Shown in pieces: positions 12,331-37,124 of a stretch of 64,000 nucleotides of DNA. The stretch is taken from assembly GCF_002897035.1 (NCBI RefSeq), contig NZ_BAUX01000012.1, forward strand, positions 1 through 64,000, written 5' to 3'. The notes below the pieces were generated by a model. The model was not told the DNA's origin. It saw only the letters and a list, made by a program, of their open reading frames with translations, and did not search any database. Position 1 is the stretch's first letter. Each line of letters opens with the position of its first letter. Position numbers and translations under genes: made by a program. The DNA is from Methylopila sp. Yamaguchi. Lineage in GTDB: Bacteria; Pseudomonadota; Alphaproteobacteria; Rhizobiales; Methylopilaceae.

Positions 12331-13011
12331 TCAGGACACCTTGCTCATGCGAACGCCGTCCCATGCGAACACGACCTGATCGCCCTGACGCACGTTTTGA
12401 ATCACCGAGGGACGAAACGCGGCCAGGCACGACCCGCTGGGAAAACGCACGGACGGGTAGAGAAGGCCATTTCCTCCGCCGGCCCTGATGGATCGCGCCA
12501 GAGCCTGCCCGGCGGGATAGCCGGCAGCAGGATCGGGGTTCAGGCTGGGGTGCCCAGGCTCGTCCCGTAGATCATGGAAGCGGCACGCGAAGCCGGCGAG
12601 CAACTGGCGGTACGCCACCAACTCTTGCGCCGCCCCGGCTTCGCGGAGAGCGTTCGCCATGTGGAACGTCACCTCGCGCTCGGCGGTCTCCGCGCCCGCC
12701 GGGCCGAACGCCGCGTACCAGCACCCGCGGTCCTCGTCGTTGAACCGGTTGCCCGGAGGCTTCGCATGGCAGAAGGCCGCGTTGATGAACGACCAGCCGT
12801 AGCCGTAGCTCTCATTAAGCAACTCGCCGGGATCGACCCCGAGCGGCAACGCCGAAGCGCGCAGCCGCGCGGAGGTGAGGCCTTCCAGGGCGTTCAGAAC
12901 CGCCTGTTCCTCGTCGTCGTCCGCAAGCGGCGCGACGGCAGGCTCGTCGATGTAGGCCGAGGCGATCAGCCGAACGGTGCGACCCTCGACGAAGTCGGTC
13001 TCGGGGATCAC
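12331..13011 (-). CDS. RES-domain toxin inserted in the GTA cluster
   Basis: This 226-aa protein has a RES domain. Visible conserved residues are Arg89 in GNRFND, the aromatic pair Trp98-Tyr99, Glu113 in EREVTFH and Ser187 in LLYPSVR, in the order and spacing of the family. RES toxins studied so far destroy NAD+ or ADP-ribosylate PRPP synthetase, and are neutralised by an Xre/MbcA/ParS-type partner. The start is a GTG at 13011 that overlaps the antitoxin stop (GTGA), so toxin translation is coupled to antitoxin synthesis. It reads in the same direction as the GTA genes but has no role in known GTAs. Toxicity is inference from family. Confidence 0.88.
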   Translation of the reverse strand: MIPETDFVEGRTVRLIASAYIDEPAVAPLADDDEEQAVLNALEGLTSARLRASALPLGVDPGELLNESYGYGWSFINAAFCHAKPPGNRFNDEDRGCWYAAFGPAGAETAEREVTFHMANALREAGAAQELVAYRQLLAGFACRFHDLRDEPGHPSLNPDPAAGYPAGQALARSIRAGGGNGLLYPSVRFPSGSCLAAFRPSVIQNVRQGDQVVFAWDGVRMSKVS

Positions 13012-13418
13012 AAGCCGCCGCGAAGGCCGTCGAGATACCGACGGGTCCTCAGCATTTGCGGGATCCCGCCCTCGATCATCAACGCGACCGGGGATTTGCC
13101 TTGAAACAGCGGCCCCGTGTTCGGCGAGGTCGGCCAGGCGCTCACCAAGTCCTGGTTGAACAGCAGCCGCAGCGCCTTGAAGATGCCGACGATCAGGCTG
13201 GCCCGGGTGATCTTGTCCTGATCGAGCCGGCCGTGGAAGCTCCCCGCCTTCATGCGATTCCAGGTTGCGATCGGAACGTCGAAGAGCGCAGCCGCATCCC
13301 TGTTCGTAAGGCTCCAGAACGCGCAGGCCCGCACGACCGCCTTCACGATCGTCGCTGTCCTGTCCGTAGCCTCCGGCTGGATCGGTGGGACGAAAGCCCT
13401 GGGAGCCTCCAACGCCAT
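13008..13418 (-). CDS. Xre/MbcA/ParS-type antitoxin of the RES module
   Basis: This 136-aa protein has a helix-turn-helix-like segment at about 35-60 (WSLTNRDAAALFDVPIATWNRMK). The C-terminal MbcA/ParS toxin-binding region is at about 80-136, with the usual NTGPLFQGKSPVALMIEGG core and an RRYLDGLRGGL end. It directly precedes the RES toxin with a 4-bp overlap, the standard antitoxin-toxin order. I chose ATG 13418 (MALEAPRAF). An in-frame ATG further upstream would begin inside the palindromic operator and is less likely. It probably binds the palindrome at 13436-13455 to repress its own operon. Confidence 0.85.
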   Translation of the reverse strand: MALEAPRAFVPPIQPEATDRTATIVKAVVRACAFWSLTNRDAAALFDVPIATWNRMKAGSFHGRLDQDKITRASLIVGIFKALRLLFNQDLVSAWPTSPNTGPLFQGKSPVALMIEGGIPQMLRTRRYLDGLRGGL

Positions 13419-13435
13419 CTCCTCTGAAATCCTCG

Positions 13436-13455
13436 GGCATATCATATGATATGCC
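13436..13455. promoter_or_regulatory. 20-bp perfect palindrome, candidate operator of the RES/Xre operon
   Basis: GGCATATCATATGATATGCC is a perfect inverted repeat 17 bp upstream of the antitoxin ATG. It is an AT-rich island in a very GC-rich region. Xre-type antitoxins bind such palindromes, often overlapping the -10 element. The portal stop codon is only about 31 bp upstream, so it falls in a very small promoter gap. Confidence 0.75.
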
Positions 13456-13486
13456 GACGGGAGATCAAGGCTTGGACTTCGTATCA

Positions 13487-14662
13487 TCACGAGGCACCGG
13501 ACGCCTCCCCTGCCCCGTACCCCACCGCCGCGCGCTTCTCGTCGGCAGTGAGATAGTCCGCCGCGCCCACGCGGCGCCAGAGCGACTCGCGCTCTTCGGC
13601 GAGCGCTTCGACGGCGTCGAGGTCCGGGGTCAGCGCCAGCGCCGCGCCATAGGCCGGCGACAGCCATCCCGCGAGGTTCTCGGCCACGCGGCCGAGCAGC
13701 GGCAGCACGGTCTGGCGCCACAGCGCGCGGTTGGCCTCGCGATAGTTGGCGTAGGTCGCGTCGCCCGGGATGCCGAGCAGCATCGGCGGCACCCCAAAGG
13801 CGAGCGCGATCTCCCGCGCCGCGCCGTTTTTCGCGGCGAGGAAGTCCATCTCCTGCGGCGAAAGGGACAAGGGCTTCCAGTCCAGCCCGCCGTCGAGCAG
13901 CAGCGGCCTGCCGGCGTTGGCGGCGCCGGAGAACTGCCCTTCCAACTCCTCCTTCAGCCGTTCGACCTGGTCGTCGGTGAGGCTCGCCCCCTCGGCGCCC
14001 CTGTAGACCAACGCGCCGGAGGGCCGCGCGGCGTTGTCGAGCAGGGCCTTGTTCCAGGCGGAGGCGGCGTTGTGCAGGTCGAGGGCGGTGGCCGCAGGCT
14101 CCAGCGGGCTCAGGCCGTAGTGGTCGTCGAGCGGATGGAACAGCGTCAGGTGCAGGATCGGCGGCACCGGCTCGGCGCGCTGGTCGAAGCGCACGAGCTC
14201 GGCCCCGACGCGGTACTCGTAGGCCTCGGGCCAGCCCTCCGCGCCGGGAACCACGCGCATCCGGTCCGGCCTCAGCGCATGAAGCTCGCGCACCTCGTCG
14301 CCCAAGGTCACCGCCTCGACATAGGCGTTGCCGGCGATCAGCAGCTGCGAGACCAGAGTCTCGACGAGGCCCGCCCGCCCCTGCCGCGGGTTCGGGCGCT
14401 CGAGCAACGCCATGAGCGGATGCCCCTCGAGCTCCCGCCCCGCCTCCATCAGCGTCAGCGGGGTGCCGCCGGCGGCCTCGGCGACCAGGCGCACCGCACG
14501 ATGGACGATGGGATTCCGCTGGTAGCCCTCGCGGGCGAGGCTCGTCGGATCGCGCGGGCTCCACACCGCTCGTCCGCCGCCGTGCAGCGCCAGCAGACCC
14601 CCGGCGCGGGAGGCCTTCGCCTCAAGCGCCCGGCCAAGAAGGCGAGCGAAAGGAAACGCCAT
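13487..14662 (-). CDS. HK97-family portal protein (GTA gp3)
   Basis: This 391-aa portal has the family landmarks YQRNPIVHRAVRLVAEAAGGTPL, AGNAYVEAV, HALRPDRMRVVPG, HPLDDHYGLSPLEPAATALDLH, and the C-terminal FGVPPMLLGIPGDATYANYREANRALWRQTVLP. It forms the DNA entry ring of the GTA head. Start ATG 14662 is preceded by GGAG with 6-bp spacing; upstream in-frame codons to 14860 lack portal similarity. In known GTAs it directly follows the large terminase, but here 1.6 kb with two opposite-strand genes separate them, so it needs its own promoter. I saw no convincing one in 14663-14858. Confidence 0.92.
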   Translation of the reverse strand: MAFPFARLLGRALEAKASRAGGLLALHGGGRAVWSPRDPTSLAREGYQRNPIVHRAVRLVAEAAGGTPLTLMEAGRELEGHPLMALLERPNPRQGRAGLVETLVSQLLIAGNAYVEAVTLGDEVRELHALRPDRMRVVPGAEGWPEAYEYRVGAELVRFDQRAEPVPPILHLTLFHPLDDHYGLSPLEPAATALDLHNAASAWNKALLDNAARPSGALVYRGAEGASLTDDQVERLKEELEGQFSGAANAGRPLLLDGGLDWKPLSLSPQEMDFLAAKNGAAREIALAFGVPPMLLGIPGDATYANYREANRALWRQTVLPLLGRVAENLAGWLSPAYGAALALTPDLDAVEALAEERESLWRRVGAADYLTADEKRAAVGYGAGEASGAS

Positions 14663-14858
14663 GGCGCTCTCCATCTTGCTATAAACGTCAGCAACAATGA
14701 CGCGAAATCGCGCCTTGCGCTGCATCGCAAAGTCGAAAATTACGCATTGCAACGTGCGTGGCGCCACATTCAAGTGGAACAAAGTGTTCAAGGGCGCGTT
14801 CTGCGTGCCGAGGGGCCCAATTGACCATCCGGATCGGACGGTCGAAGAAGGCAAAGTC

Positions 14859-15755
14859 ATGAAAAATCTGCTTCTCGGCGGCGTCGCCGCGTTTGCGATC
14901 GTCGCTTCGCCGGTGTCCGGTCTCGCTCAGTCGACCGAACGCGGCGCGCAATCCGAAAGCCCGCGATCCACGGAGTCCGGCGGCGCCGGACGGGCGGAGT
15001 CCGGTTCGAGCGCTGGCCGGGCGGAGTCCGGTTCGAGCGGCAGCCGCATGGAGACCGGCGGCGCCGGGTCGGAGCGCGGCGGCGACCGCGGATCGTCGTC
15101 CGGCGCGGAGATGCGCGGCGAGCGGCCGTCCGCCGCAGAGTCCTCCAAAGACACGCCGTCCGGGCGCCCGTCCGCGGCCGATGCGCCGACGTCGCGCGGC
15201 ACGACCGAACGCTCGGGCGGAGCGACGTCATCCGACACGAAGCCGTCCGCCGACACGAAATCGACGTCCGACACGAAATCCATGGAGCGCGACGAGAAGC
15301 TCCGCGAGCGCTCCGAGCGATCGGGCGGCGCCCGCGAGACGACGGACCGGCCCGACCGGGAACGCATGGGCGGCGACAGCTCCCGCTCAAGCACGGAGCG
15401 ATCGACGACGACTGAGCGTCCAAGCTCCGAGCGGTCGACCACCACCGAGCGGTCGACCGAGCGCGACCGGAGCTCCAGCCGGACGTCGGTGAGCATCTCC
15501 AGCGAGAAGCGCAGCACGATCCGCGAGACCATCGTGTCGTCGCCGAGCGTGCGGAAGGTCTCCCGCTCGACGATCGGCGTCGACCTCCGCGTCGGCGTGT
15601 CGGTGCCCCGCACGGTGACGATCGAGCGGCTGCCGCCGCGCATCGTCGAAATCGTGCCGGAGTACGCCGACTACAGCTACTTCGTGCTCGACGACGGCAC
15701 GATCGTGATCGTCGATCCCGCCACCTACGACGTGGTCTACGTCATCGAGGCCTGA
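14859..15755 (+). CDS. Secreted polyampholyte with C-terminal DUF1236
   Basis: This 298-aa protein has a clear signal peptide (MKNLLLGGVAAFAIVASPVSGLAQ). Residues 25-215 form a long disordered region rich in Ser, Thr, Arg, Glu, Asp and Gly, with repeats such as GRAESGSS and ERSTTTER. The last 50 residues (VSVPRTVTIERLPPRIVEIVPEYADYSYFVLDDGTIVIVDP) are a DUF1236 domain, a Rhizobiales periplasmic module of unknown function. It lies on the opposite strand within the GTA cluster, between portal and large terminase, and is not a known GTA component. Start chosen at the signal peptide. A terminator follows. Confidence 0.82.
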   Translation: MKNLLLGGVAAFAIVASPVSGLAQSTERGAQSESPRSTESGGAGRAESGSSAGRAESGSSGSRMETGGAGSERGGDRGSSSGAEMRGERPSAAESSKDTPSGRPSAADAPTSRGTTERSGGATSSDTKPSADTKSTSDTKSMERDEKLRERSERSGGARETTDRPDRERMGGDSSRSSTERSTTTERPSSERSTTTERSTERDRSSSRTSVSISSEKRSTIRETIVSSPSVRKVSRSTIGVDLRVGVSVPRTVTIERLPPRIVEIVPEYADYSYFVLDDGTIVIVDPATYDVVYVIEA

Positions 15756-15763
15756 GCGCCCCG

Positions 15764-15801
15764 ACGTTCCGCCGGGAACAATCGCTCCCGGCGGGACGTT
15801 T
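15764..15801 (+). terminator. Inverted repeat / terminator after the DUF1236 gene
   Basis: Arms ACGTTCCGCCGGGA and TCCCGGCGGGACGT pair over about 14 bp (one G-T type mismatch) around an 8-base loop, followed by a short T run. It starts 9 bp after the stop codon. The T run is short, so termination efficiency is uncertain. Confidence 0.6.
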
Positions 15802-15862
15802 CGCATCGACGCCGGCCGCTCCGCTTGCGGCCCGGTCGGCTGCGACGGAAGGAGCAGGTTCC

Positions 15863-16270
15863 ATGAAACGGCGCATCGCATTGGCGCTCGCCACCGCGGC
15901 GCTTCTGACCTTTTCATTCGAGGCCGTGGCGCAAAGCGGCGGTTCTTCCGGCGGCGGCTCGTCGGGCGGATCCTCGTCCAGCGGGTCCGCTGGCAGCGGC
16001 TCGTCCGCCACCGGCGGCGGCTCGTCGACGAGCGGCTCCGGCGCCGCGGGCACGGCGGCCCCTCGAACCGGTGGAACGATGGGGACCGGGAACGACGCGG
16101 CTGCGGCGAAGCAGGGCGGCTTGGAACGCGGCTCGAGCGGCGTCGCCGGACGGAACAGGCAGGGCGGCGGCGGAGGCTCGATGGCGGGGTCAACCGAGAA
16201 CAGAGCGGACGATCCCTCGCTGAACCAGGGCATCTACCGCGACCCTGGCAAGGCCCGCAGCGACCGCTGA
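15863..16270 (+). CDS. Secreted Gly/Ser-rich small protein
   Basis: This 135-aa protein has a signal peptide (MKRRIALALATAALLTFSFEAVAQ) and then residues 25-65 almost entirely Gly and Ser. A polar tail ends in DDPSLNQGIYRDPGKARSDR. A strong GGAAGGAG site precedes the ATG. No domain is recognised; function is unknown. It shares low-complexity, exported character and strand with the DUF1236 gene 107 bp upstream, and its 3' end converges on the large terminase with only 13 bp between the stop codons. Confidence 0.7.
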   Translation: MKRRIALALATAALLTFSFEAVAQSGGSSGGGSSGGSSSSGSAGSGSSATGGGSSTSGSGAAGTAAPRTGGTMGTGNDAAAAKQGGLERGSSGVAGRNRQGGGGGSMAGSTENRADDPSLNQGIYRDPGKARSDR

Positions 16271-16283
16271 GGCGCCGCGCGCT

Positions 16284-17636
16284 CTACAGCCGCAACACTC
16301 TGGGACCTCGCCCCCGGGCGCCGAGCATCAAGTGGGTAACCGCCCAGACGAGGGCGTCGACCCGGTCGGGCGAACGGCCGTTGGCGAGCCCGTCGAGACC
16401 GAACGCCGCCATTTCATCCTCCAGCGCGGGATGAGCGCCCACATGGGCCACCCGGCCCTGAGCGTATAGCGCGGCGACGGGCTCGGCCCTCAGCCATTTG
16501 CCGCGCGTCGCCCTGACCGCCACGACGGGGACGCCGGGATCGACCTGCGCGATGACCGCGCGCACCATCTCCCCTCCCTGGTTCACCTCCGCGACCAGCG
16601 CGTCAGCCTCAAGCCGGCGGTGCAAGGCGACCGCCCGCGCCGCCCAGAGCTCCGGGCGGGCGGCCTGCGCCGTCTCGTCCGCCAGCACATAGGCCCGGTC
16701 GTCCGCGCCGAGCCCCACCGCCACCAGCCCGCAGGCGTCGGACCGCTTCCCGCCGCCGGCCGGCGGATCGACGGCCACGACGACGCGCTTCAGCTCCGGA
16801 ACGTCGCGCACCCGGGAGCGCTCGATCGCCTCCCGGCTCCACAGCGCGTCCTCGTCGTCCTCAAGCAATTCGCCGTCGAGCTCCTGTCGGCCGAGCCTTG
16901 TGCCGGCGTAGGTCCCGACGACAGCCTCGAGAAAACGCGGGGCGAGGTTGGCGGCGTTCATCCGGGTGGTCGCCCGCGACACCACGGTGGCGGGGTCCGC
17001 GAGCAGCCGCTTGATCAGCGGCACGGCGCGCGGCGTCGTGGTCGCGAGCTGGCGCGGCCGCTCGCCGAGGCGAAGTCCGAACTGCAGCATGTCCCATGTC
17101 TCCTGCGGATGGCGCCATTTGGCGACCTCGTCGCACCACGCGGCCTCGAACTGCGGCCCGCGCAGCGCCTCCGGATCCTCGGCGGAAAACCCCTGCGCGA
17201 TCGCGCCGTTCGGCCAAAGCAGCCGACGCCGCGTCGGCTCGTAGACCGGGCGCTCGGCGCCCGCGCTCACGGCGAGAACGCCCGACACCCCGTCGACCAT
17301 CACCTCGCGCAGATCGGCGTAGGTCTCGCCCACCAGAGCGATGCGGCCGACCGGCGCCTCCGCGAAGCCTTGCCGGCCGAGCGCGAGCCCGCAGACCCAT
17401 TCGGCGCCGGCGCGGGTCTTGCCCGCGCCCCGGCCGCCGAGCATCAGCCAGGTGGTCCAGTCTCCCTCCGGGGGCGTCTGGTCGTCGCGCGCCCAGATGC
17501 GCCAGAAACCCGCCAGAGCCTCCGCCTCCCTAGGCGTCAGGGACGCCAGAAACCTGTCCCTCGTGCTCGGCGCGCATGCGAGCAAGTCGGCGCGCAAGCT
17601 CGTCCCGAAGGGCGTCGACATCGACGGGCTCGCCAT
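16284..17636 (-). CDS. terL: Large terminase subunit (GTA gp2)
   Basis: This 450-aa packaging motor has Walker A GGRGAGKT at 67-74, Walker B around AAWCDE (165-170), an ATTTPR coupling motif near 198-203, and nuclease-domain acidic residues Asp290 (VAVDPPAG), Glu350 (VAEVNQGG) and Asp427 (PDRVDALVWA). The sequence around Walker A is typical of GTA terminases. The start is uncertain: ATG 17636 and ATG 17621 are both open, and either overlaps the small terminase gene by about 90-107 bp. The nuclease and ATPase residues look intact, so packaging activity is plausible. Confidence 0.92.
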   Translation of the reverse strand: MASPSMSTPFGTSLRADLLACAPSTRDRFLASLTPREAEALAGFWRIWARDDQTPPEGDWTTWLMLGGRGAGKTRAGAEWVCGLALGRQGFAEAPVGRIALVGETYADLREVMVDGVSGVLAVSAGAERPVYEPTRRRLLWPNGAIAQGFSAEDPEALRGPQFEAAWCDEVAKWRHPQETWDMLQFGLRLGERPRQLATTTPRAVPLIKRLLADPATVVSRATTRMNAANLAPRFLEAVVGTYAGTRLGRQELDGELLEDDEDALWSREAIERSRVRDVPELKRVVVAVDPPAGGGKRSDACGLVAVGLGADDRAYVLADETAQAARPELWAARAVALHRRLEADALVAEVNQGGEMVRAVIAQVDPGVPVVAVRATRGKWLRAEPVAALYAQGRVAHVGAHPALEDEMAAFGLDGLANGRSPDRVDALVWAVTHLMLGARGRGPRVLRL

Positions 17637-18030
17637 TCTCGTCCCCCCGTCCGCCGGCCCGCGTCTCGTCGCGATCGAGCGCCGCCAGATCCTTCAAGGT
17701 GCGCACCAGCGCGCCGAGCGTCTTGGCGGCCCGTTCCGCCTCGTCGAGCCCGCTCCCGCCGGAGCGAACGAGCAGCGGCTCGATGGCGGCGAGCCGTTCG
17801 TCGACCCGCAGCCGCAGACGGCGCACGGTCTCCAGCCGATCGACCGCCGGCCGGGTCCACCCCTCGCGCGCCACCATCCGGCAGAGCGCCTGACGGGAGA
17901 CGCCGACCCTCTGCGCGATCTCCGCCTGGGTCAGGCTCGTGGTCTCGATCAGCCGCCGCGCCTCCGCGATGGTCTCGGCGGACGCGCGCGGTTTCGGCCC
18001 GGCTTTGGGCGCTGCGTCGAACTCCGTCAT
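17530..18030 (-). CDS. Small terminase-like protein with helix-turn-helix (GTA gp1 position)
   Basis: This 166-aa protein lies immediately upstream of terL. Residues 30-60 form a clear helix-turn-helix (LTQAEIAQRVGVSRQALCRMVAREGW). The rest is helical and charged (RLRLRVDERLAAIEPLL, then a basic/acidic tail), fitting the coiled-coil and oligomerisation core of small terminases. The ATG follows AGGAGG with 5-bp spacing and a good promoter upstream. It is likely the TerS of this GTA; it could alternatively be a regulator, but position and architecture favour TerS. Confidence 0.75.
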   Translation of the reverse strand: MTEFDAAPKAGPKPRASAETIAEARRLIETTSLTQAEIAQRVGVSRQALCRMVAREGWTRPAVDRLETVRRLRLRVDERLAAIEPLLVRSGGSGLDEAERAAKTLGALVRTLKDLAALDRDETRAGGRGDENGEPVDVDALRDELARRLARMRAEHEGQVSGVPDA

Positions 18031-18101
18031 GGAGACCTCCTCTCAGGGAGCGAGGAAGGCGTCGCCGCCGTCCCTCGCCCGCAGTTCTGGAGCATGGGAG
18101 A

Positions 18102-18130
18102 AACCTACCCGACGAGCGTCACGCTGTCAA
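18102..18130 (-). promoter_or_regulatory. Candidate sigma70 promoter of the GTA terminase genes
   Basis: On the minus strand, TTGACA (18130-18125, a perfect -35) is followed after exactly 17 bp by TAGGTT (18107-18102). The small terminase ATG is 72 bp downstream. The -10 is only a partial match to TATAAT, so activity may depend on an activator, as GTA promoters usually do. Confidence 0.6.
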
Positions 18131-18139
18131 TGCATATTT

Positions 18140-18151
18140 TCCTAAGTAGGA
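18140..18151. promoter_or_regulatory. Inverted repeat just upstream of the GTA promoter
   Basis: TCCTA-AG-TAGGA is centred about 15 bp upstream of the -35 box, flanked by T-rich tracts. It is a plausible activator site. No known GTA regulator motif is recognised. Confidence 0.4.
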
Positions 18152-18459
18152 TTTTTAGCTGATTTTCGTCGAGCCTTGTGTGCGGGCGGTATCCCGCTCG
18201 AGCTGCAACAAGGCTGGTTCACGAGGAGTTCGAAGGTCCCAAGCACGCGGGTGACGGCCGGCTCCGGCGCCGCCGGACACCTGATTTGCTAGCGCGGACA
18301 CGTTAACCGCCCACGAACCATCTGAACCGGAGATGAACCTTCTTATTAGAATAAGTTCAGACTGGACGGGCTAATGTGACACCGCGTCCAGGGAGTCCCC
18401 CGTCCGAAAGACGCTGCGCCGGAATTCCGCCCCTCTCCGGTCCAGGCCCCAAAGACGAT

Positions 18460-18485
18460 GCTCAACTGTTGGGGAACGGTTGAGC
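18460..18485 (-). terminator. Hairpin after the glycosyltransferase gene
   Basis: Arms GCTCAAC and GTTGAGC, with an inner GTT/AAC pair and a GGGG/CCCC loop, form a stable stem-loop 80 bp beyond the gene's stop. No clean T run follows, so it may not terminate; it could be an mRNA-end stabiliser. Confidence 0.3.
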
Positions 18486-18564
18486 GCCTTCGTCCCCTCT
18501 TCGCTTAGAGCGGTCCAGAATTGCCCCCGCCGGGCGGTCCTGCCACGCGCGTCGGCCTCCGGGT

Positions 18565-19746
18565 CTACCCTGTCACCGCAAGCGTCCGCACGCGGATGTC
18601 GACGCGCGGGTCGCGCGCGAGCTGGGGACGAAGCTCGGCGGCCAGCGCCCGGGCGCGGACAGCCGTCGCCGGCCGGGCGTAGGCGTCGCGGACGGCGGAG
18701 CGGAACGCTTCCGCGCTGCGCTCCTCGCGAGATACGACCCTCATCACGCCGGCCTCCGCAGCCCGGCGCGCGTGGTAGCCCTGCTCCAGATGCTGAGGCG
18801 CCGCCACCTGCGGCAGGCCGGCGCCGAGGCCGAGGCACAGGATGCCGTGCTGGCCCGCGCTCAGCAGCAGCCGCGTGCGGCGGGCGATCGCGTCGACCGG
18901 CGCCGGGGCGGTCTCGACGGTCACGCCGCGGGCCGCCAGCCGCTCCGCGGCTGCGGCGTCGAGGCCAGGGATGAAGGCTCGGGTCGGCGCGCCAAGGTCC
19001 TCGAGCGCTTCCATCAACGCCGGGTTGTCGCGCTCGGTGGTGGAGAAGTAGACGAAGATCTCCTCGCCTGAGCCGTCGGAGGCGGCGCTCGGGAGATCGG
19101 CGACCGGCGGCAGCAGCGGGCGCGCCCGCAGCCCGTGGTAGGGGTCGAGCATCGGCAGCGTGCACGCGAGCTGGTCGTCGGAGGCGTAGACCGCCGGAAG
19201 CCGGTCGATCTCGGGAACTCCGAGCGGCGTGGCGGCGCGGTTGACGGCCGCGACGATGTCGCGCTCGTCGTAGAGCCGCTCGGCGTGCTCGGGCATGAAG
19301 ATCGGAAACGACGGCATGTCGGGCGGCGGGCAGGAGTAGCCGACGCCGATCGCGACCGCCGGCACGCCGAGACTGCGCGCGGCCATCAGCGCGCAAGGCG
19401 CGAAGTCCGCGACCACGAAGGCGATCCGCCGGCAGCGGATCACCTCCTGCCACCACGCGATCTGGCGCGCGAGGAAGGCTTCGTCGCGAAAGCCGAGATC
19501 GCCGAGGAACTCGCCCCAGGTCGCGGTGCGCACCGCGTTGGGGCCGCGTCGGTGAGCGTCGCGCGGGCGAAGCGAGGCGCCGGGAAACACCAGTTCGCAG
19601 ACAGGTTCGAGCTCGACCGCGTGCTCCATACGGCAGAGCGCGGCGTCGAAGACAAAACGGTCGCCGAGCGCTTCGGCGACCGTTTTCAGGGTGACGACGT
19701 GGCCGCGCCCGGCCCCGCCCTCCCAGGCGAGCAGCGCGCGGCGCAT
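18565..19746 (-). CDS. UGT/MGT-like GT-B glycosyltransferase
   Basis: This 393-aa protein has an N-terminal GGAGRGHVVTLKTVAEAL nucleotide-sugar enzyme start and a C-terminal donor-binding region with SAGQHGILCLGLGAGLPQVAAPQHLEQGYHARRAAEAGV, matching the UGT-type motif (HGG.GT...P...DQ), although the His-Gly-Gly becomes Gly-Gln-His-Gly. It probably transfers a sugar to a lipid or small molecule; substrate unknown. It follows the outer-membrane-like gene by 3 bp, so the two form an operon. No signal peptide is visible; the protein is cytoplasmic or peripheral. Confidence 0.75.
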   Translation of the reverse strand: MRRALLAWEGGAGRGHVVTLKTVAEALGDRFVFDAALCRMEHAVELEPVCELVFPGASLRPRDAHRRGPNAVRTATWGEFLGDLGFRDEAFLARQIAWWQEVIRCRRIAFVVADFAPCALMAARSLGVPAVAIGVGYSCPPPDMPSFPIFMPEHAERLYDERDIVAAVNRAATPLGVPEIDRLPAVYASDDQLACTLPMLDPYHGLRARPLLPPVADLPSAASDGSGEEIFVYFSTTERDNPALMEALEDLGAPTRAFIPGLDAAAAERLAARGVTVETAPAPVDAIARRTRLLLSAGQHGILCLGLGAGLPQVAAPQHLEQGYHARRAAEAGVMRVVSREERSAEAFRSAVRDAYARPATAVRARALAAELRPQLARDPRVDIRVRTLAVTG

Positions 19747-37048: not shown

Positions 37049-37124
37049 CATGACCGCCGTCGAGGAACCGTCGTTCAGGTCGGGCGTTTCCCCTCGTGAA
37101 CGAAGACAGAACGAGGACACGCTC

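Follow-up and report, generated by a model that had tools for sequence, protein, structure and literature searches.

Why does a gene transfer agent (GTA) cluster carry, between its large terminase and portal genes, two genes that are transcribed against it? The question is raised by a 64,000-nucleotide stretch of DNA from Methylopila sp. Yamaguchi (NCBI RefSeq assembly GCF_002897035.1, contig NZ_BAUX01000012.1, positions 1 to 64,000; hereafter the window), for which a preliminary description had proposed either hitch-hikers or envelope proteins that assist particle release or DNA uptake.

Two opposite-strand genes in a GTA cluster

The window contains an RcGTA-like cluster on the minus strand, with the large terminase (TerL), portal, prohead protease, capsid and a GTA_TIM tail protein in that order, and with adaptor, head completion, tail tube, DUF2460, BR0599/Gp84-like and NlpC/P60 proteins among its further genes. 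TerL (16284-17636, minus strand) matches PF03237 and PF17289 (Terminase_6N/6C), and overlaps by about 104 bp a probable small terminase with a helix-turn-helix (TerS; 17530-18030, minus strand; weak PHROG small-terminase matches), an overlap found in all 13 genus loci. The portal gene (13487-14662, minus strand) matches PF04860 (Phage_portal) with 293 bits, its start being placed by homology; the listed portal ORF reaching 14860 was rejected as a 5' over-extension, as homology begins near residue 60-67 in most relatives. The last codon of TerL and the portal start set by homology are separated by 1,624 bp, in agreement with the 1.6 kb originally described. Two plus-strand ORFs occupy this interval, flanked by minus-strand genes as had been reported: a DUF1236 gene (14859-15755, 298 aa) and one for a putatively secreted Gly/Ser-rich protein (15863-16270, 135 aa), which ends 13 bp from the TerL stop, tail-to-tail. 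The cluster resembles other RcGTA-like head-tail clusters in gene content and in its GTA_TIM protein, but these two opposite-strand genes interrupt it, as does, further along, an Xre-RES pair.

The latter comprises an Xre-like antitoxin gene (34.7 bits) and a RES-domain gene (82.4 bits) at 12331-13433 on the minus strand, which is the cluster strand. Lying between portal and protease, and hence within the GTA cluster, the two genes probably form a toxin-antitoxin pair. Matches to it also occur at the portal-protease junction of the relative G011, with RES in two pieces.

The DUF1236 protein consists of a signal-peptide-like N-terminus, a Ser/Thr/Arg/Glu/Asp low-complexity middle and a C-terminal DUF1236 domain. 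The identity given to it earlier was confirmed by a PF06823 score of 42.9 bits for residues 234-297 (gathering cut-off 32.4), and of 46.1 bits in the genome search. The Gly/Ser-rich protein has a conserved C-terminal tail; signal peptides of both proteins were assigned by visual inspection and a crude script. Comparison with G008 gave dN/dS values of 0.30 for DUF1236 (signal region 0.37, low-complexity region 0.32, C-terminal region 0.12) and 0.18 for the Gly/Ser-rich gene, which reached 0.27 against G002; the cluster genes TerL and portal gave 0.12 and 0.08. These ratios indicate that purifying selection acts on both genes.

The C-terminal domain was modelled with AF2 (pLDDT 86.4, pTM 0.78) from a 2-row alignment. 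Its best PDB match was 4ew5_B, the CigR C-terminal domain (Foldseek probability 1.00, TM 0.58/0.56, 20% identity), at an E-value of only 8.1e-3, and neither PDB nor BFVD gave a match to the model at E<=0.001. By sequence, no significant homologue of solved structure was found, and DUF1236 was the only Pfam match in the protein. The domain may resemble CigR in predicted fold. CigR is RcnB-like.

DUF1236 looks like a host family and not a phage gene family, judging from the databases searched. Searched at E<=1e-3 against 50,697 phage records, the C-terminal 93 aa found no match, no PHROG match was obtained, and no IMG/VR contig with DUF1236 was confirmed in a search that reaches close relatives only; no phage- or virus-borne DUF1236 was thus found in these phage records or in IMG/VR. 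The domain does match 173 plasmid records. It is present in 20 of 61 order genomes, and the window's own genome has three DUF1236 genes. The Gly/Ser-rich protein gave one weak PHROG match (E 0.0072). Aluminium stress strongly induces a DUF1236 gene in Rhizobium phaseoli (PMC8909678).

The junction in relatives and across the order

The genus sample comprised 13 genomes of the Methylopila group, including that of the window, and the family sample 18. TerL was found in 13/13 and 16/18 of these, respectively. An opposite-strand DUF1236 gene is present at the TerL-portal junction in 9 of the 13 genus genomes. Eight of them (G000, G001, G004, G007, G008, G009, G011 and G012) have TerL and portal on one contig with DUF1236 between them, with three copies in G007 and again in G009; the ninth, G010, was assessed from the portal side only, its contig ending at TerL and three opposite-strand DUF1236 copies adjoining the portal gene on another contig. 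The Gly/Ser-rich protein was matched in four of the 18 family genomes (G000, G002, G008 and G011), every time beside TerL, and G001 has a tail-similar ORF at the TerL-portal junction, which brings the junction Gly/Ser-rich genes to five. All 15 junction DUF1236 genes and all five Gly/Ser-rich genes run opposite to the cluster.

G001, G008 and G011 each carry both genes at this junction, contrary to the refutation that the preliminary description had offered, namely that the pair would be found elsewhere in all relatives and be a local rearrangement or assembly join here. An assembly join or a recent local rearrangement was rejected because other genomes have the arrangement too. In G004 (L033) terL is split into two and the capsid match is also interrupted; these breaks may be sequencing errors, the assembly being listed as 88% complete.

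The other four genus genomes differ among themselves. G002 keeps the Gly/Ser-rich gene at the junction and is without DUF1236, G003 has a TerL-portal gap of 218 bp, and in G005 the opposite strand carries a different ORF, whose start is signal-like. At the junction in G006 (L029, 7075-7658), a HicA toxin gene and an adjacent DUF1902 gene share the strand of the cluster; this insert, too, is toxin-antitoxin-like, the second such case in the GTA clusters of the genus. A conserved portal promoter in the gap was also considered, and is unsupported: G002, which is without DUF1236, shares with G000 and G008 only about 20 bp ahead of the portal start, which is still about 139 bp away from the Gly/Ser-rich start.

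Junction lengths were compared at 176 TerL loci (167 distinct), with distances taken from tblastn ends extended to the full query length and counts covering loci with a detectable neighbour gene. A TerL-portal distance of at least 800 bp was found at 8/12 genus loci and at 32/145 loci outside the genus, and the premise that the portal directly follows the large terminase in GTA clusters is consequently not universal. Distances of at least 800 bp were also found for portal-protease (genus 5/12, rest 23/127) and capsid-adaptor (3/11 and 22/94), spaces that in other genera are known by length alone. The corresponding figures were 0/11 and 4/119 for protease-capsid, 0/13 and 0/63 for TerS-TerL, and 0/11 and 0/31 for adaptor-HCP. 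By these counts, extra sequence is frequent at three junctions, TerL/portal among them.

A Pfam scan of 20 TerL-portal gap ORFs chosen by eye matched 16, with types that included glyoxalase-like, PAS/MCP, WYL regulator, Cys/Met metabolism enzyme, outer-membrane beta-barrel, aldo/keto reductase, cytochrome b561, NmrA-like, HxlR, DUF1902, HicA, GIY-YIG, methyltransferase and LigB. The DUF1236 profile, run over 157 gaps of which 12 belong to the genus, matched 12 ORFs, every one in the genus.

A tree of 54 DUF1236 domains placed the 15 junction copies and seven non-junction copies apart from the 32 others (support 100/96), on an alignment of 57 columns that was flagged for its few columns and for long branches meeting. 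The seven companions comprise one in G004 and six in sister genera. Four sister-genus copies (L157, L166, L170 and L178) lie in one common chromosomal neighbourhood, a conserved non-GTA site, which, to judge from its sequence, is flanked by ybaB-recR and, at its other end, by an MFS/AmpG-like permease. One origin for all junction copies was recovered in 28% of bootstrap trees. The TerL tree requires four changes to account for the presence and absence of DUF1236, a number as low in 77 of 500 shuffles. The arrival of DUF1236 at the junction was probably early in the Methylopila group, a date that the domain and TerL trees cannot decide. In a simple history, one move into the GTA junction would have preceded the radiation of the genus, with later losses in G002, G003, G005 and G006, and extra copies arising in G007, G009 and G010.

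EcfG-type promoter matches

The pattern GGAAC-N15-18-CGTT has exactly three matches in the window, two of which precede the DUF1236 and Gly/Ser-rich genes on the appropriate strand. The first (GGAAC-N16-CGTT, 14776-14800, plus strand) lies upstream of DUF1236 and is conserved in relatives. The second (GGAAC-N17-CGTT, 15775-15800, plus strand) lies upstream of the Gly/Ser-rich gene, within a strong inverted repeat (predicted hairpin) past the DUF1236 stop. With 1.91 chance matches expected per window, the count of three is unremarkable, and it is the positions of the sites that are unusual. The third is at 37064-37088 on the plus strand. No EcfG-type site was found in the window upstream of the GTA genes themselves. 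The window motif agrees with the EcfG motif GGAAC-N17-20-GTT given in PMC6599016.

Other signals were sought around the junction. Between 13300 and 18300, one sigma-70 promoter-like site was found (13441-13468, minus strand; shuffles mean 0.1), away from the TerL-portal junction, and one T-tract terminator-like site (14699-14714, minus strand), no excess over shuffles (mean 2.1). The latter is a weak terminator-like hairpin just ahead of the portal start in the GTA direction. The same interval holds no plus-strand T-tract terminator, and hence none after either the DUF1236 or the Gly/Ser-rich gene, which weakens the case for full transcriptional independence. No RNA families were found at 13000-18600.

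The strict form of the site, GGAAC-N16/17-CGTT, was counted in the 88 loci having both TerL and portal. There were 20 strict sites in 57,710 bp of TerL-portal gap, versus 8 in 854,603 bp elsewhere. Nineteen of the gap sites are in the genus and one is in another family (G101), and three represent the second strand of palindromic sites (G007, G011 and G012). Palindromic sites matching both strands are located at about 403 in the L024 gap, 1224 in the L027 gap and 1745 in the L031 gap; the second strand of the G012 site is directed at the portal gene.

For individual DUF1236 genes, the scan began 400 nt ahead of the open frame and ended at the domain, with one duplicated locus dropped. A strict site was found upstream of 13/15 junction DUF1236 genes, 22/25 other genus DUF1236 genes and 8/14 sister-genus DUF1236 genes, often about 33 or 57 nt ahead of the start codon, and upstream of 5/5 junction Gly/Ser-rich genes. 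The two junction DUF1236 genes without a site of their own are one copy each in G009 and G010, the former directly downstream of a site-bearing copy; six of the 14 sister-genus genes had no strict site, and the opposite-strand ORF in the G005 gap showed no EcfG-like site. Among 27 newly fetched DUF1236 loci from across the order (L265-L291), 13 had a strict site upstream, versus 1/27 on the reverse strand. Fourteen had none, and in the short locus L286 the oriented strand was without a strict site anywhere. A few of the order-wide loci carry GGAAT variants. These matches suggest that DUF1236 may be broadly a general-stress family.

The window's own genome contains 80 strict sites, versus 30 for a reversed control pattern. 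Each of its three DUF1236 genes has one of the 80 upstream, and another is found immediately before nepR in a PhyR-NepR-EcfG-HWE kinase locus. In this locus (L259), PhyR_sigma2/PhyR_sigma-like and receiver domains, NepR (53.9 bits) and an adjoining ECF-type sigma factor with regions 2 and 4 were identified. The two genes share with known members of the sigmaEcfG general stress regulon a promoter motif, its position at promoter distance upstream, and a genome with the cognate PhyR, NepR and EcfG, and so far as sequence can indicate they would be regulated in the same way.

Proposed moron-like stress genes and alternative readings

The reading that we consider probable is that the two genes resemble morons: induced by stress and coding for envelope proteins, they would occupy a GTA junction that tolerates insertions, have their own transcription and not be components of the particle. 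Both would be members of the host PhyR-NepR-sigmaEcfG general stress regulon. Under stress, PhyR would free EcfG, and each gene would then be transcribed from an EcfG promoter of its own, in the direction opposite to the cluster. The exported, probably periplasmic proteins would act in the envelope under stress with a protective function, the DUF1236 product presumably as a flexible polyampholyte linker bearing a CigR-like C-terminal domain. Since their arrival the genes would have been kept, duplicated or lost at the junction as cargo of benefit to the host, like the morons of prophages. Against this reading, the genes persist at the junction and every copy seen is reversed, which could give importance to the location.

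As with prophage morons, these are non-phage genes lying between phage-type structural genes, here TerL and portal, with their own promoter sequences. Here, however, the carrier is a domesticated GTA cluster, the promoter matches are to the host general stress sigma factor, and independent expression and host benefit are predicted from sequence. The junction copies are like other DUF1236 (PF06823) proteins of Hyphomicrobiales in Pfam match, signal-like N-terminus and EcfG-type promoter match, but are found in a GTA cluster, and most of the longer ones have a long low-complexity linker. By their promoters, then, the genes appear to be ordinary in kind, as host stress genes, and unusual in their place and their recurrence there. 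In the literature searched, mostly outside subscription papers, no published notice of these GTA inserts was found.

An unlikely alternative is that the insert sets the stress response against the GTA: EcfG-driven genes running head-on into the GTA operon would hinder read-through from TerL to portal and act as a cis-acting brake on lytic GTA production, and GTA read-through would make antisense RNA against the two genes. The opposite orientation of every junction copy seen and the presence of DUF1236 there in 9/13 genus genomes speak for it. Caulobacter GTA transcription through the cluster uses anti-termination (PMC11150451), and GTA transcripts could by this means pass through such an insert. 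Against this, DUF1236 is missing from the junction in 4/13 genus genomes, and the coding sequences are under selection, from which it appears that the proteins matter and not the promoters alone. Moreover, Rhodobacter capsulatus phyR and ecfG-like mutants have wild-type RcGTA activity (PMC3999984), which leaves a GTA role unsupported. A combined form, in which the insert is a built-in antisense cassette whose EcfG transcription over TerL-portal represses the GTA while its products strengthen the envelope of non-lysing cells, we regard as quite unlikely; if true, a stress-sigma-controlled cassette would link the general stress response to GTA repression.

It is very unlikely that the two proteins are GTA accessory factors aiding particle release, adsorption or DNA uptake. 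Their location within the cluster, probable export and recurrence at the junction are what such factors would show, but the promoters are of the EcfG, general-stress type, DUF1236 paralogues elsewhere have the same promoter, 4/13 genus clusters are without DUF1236 at the junction, and the DUF1236 gap matches are confined to the genus. The assistance to particle release or DNA uptake proposed in the preliminary description is for these reasons unsupported, whereas its terms hitch-hikers and envelope proteins fit host-type, probably exported products with promoter matches of their own and no phage homologue found; as a whole, that interpretation is partly supported. Least credible is that the insertion is neutral, of little benefit and functionally unconnected with the GTA, having persisted by chance where the site is permissive. 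Extra sequence is indeed common order-wide at TerL/portal, portal/protease and capsid/adaptor, and many unrelated genes are among the TerL/portal inserts, but the dN/dS values (0.12-0.30) and the conservation of the promoter matches point to maintenance of the genes as such.

If the two genes are moron-like stress genes, independent of particle assembly as we infer, then host genes of a stress regulon can apparently travel in a domesticated phage cluster in the way that morons do in a prophage. Gene transfer agents and the general stress response of Alphaproteobacteria may have a point of contact here. For DUF1236, a domain of unknown function, the strict EcfG-type matches ahead of 43/54 genes in the family and 13/27 loci in the order would provide a regulatory context.
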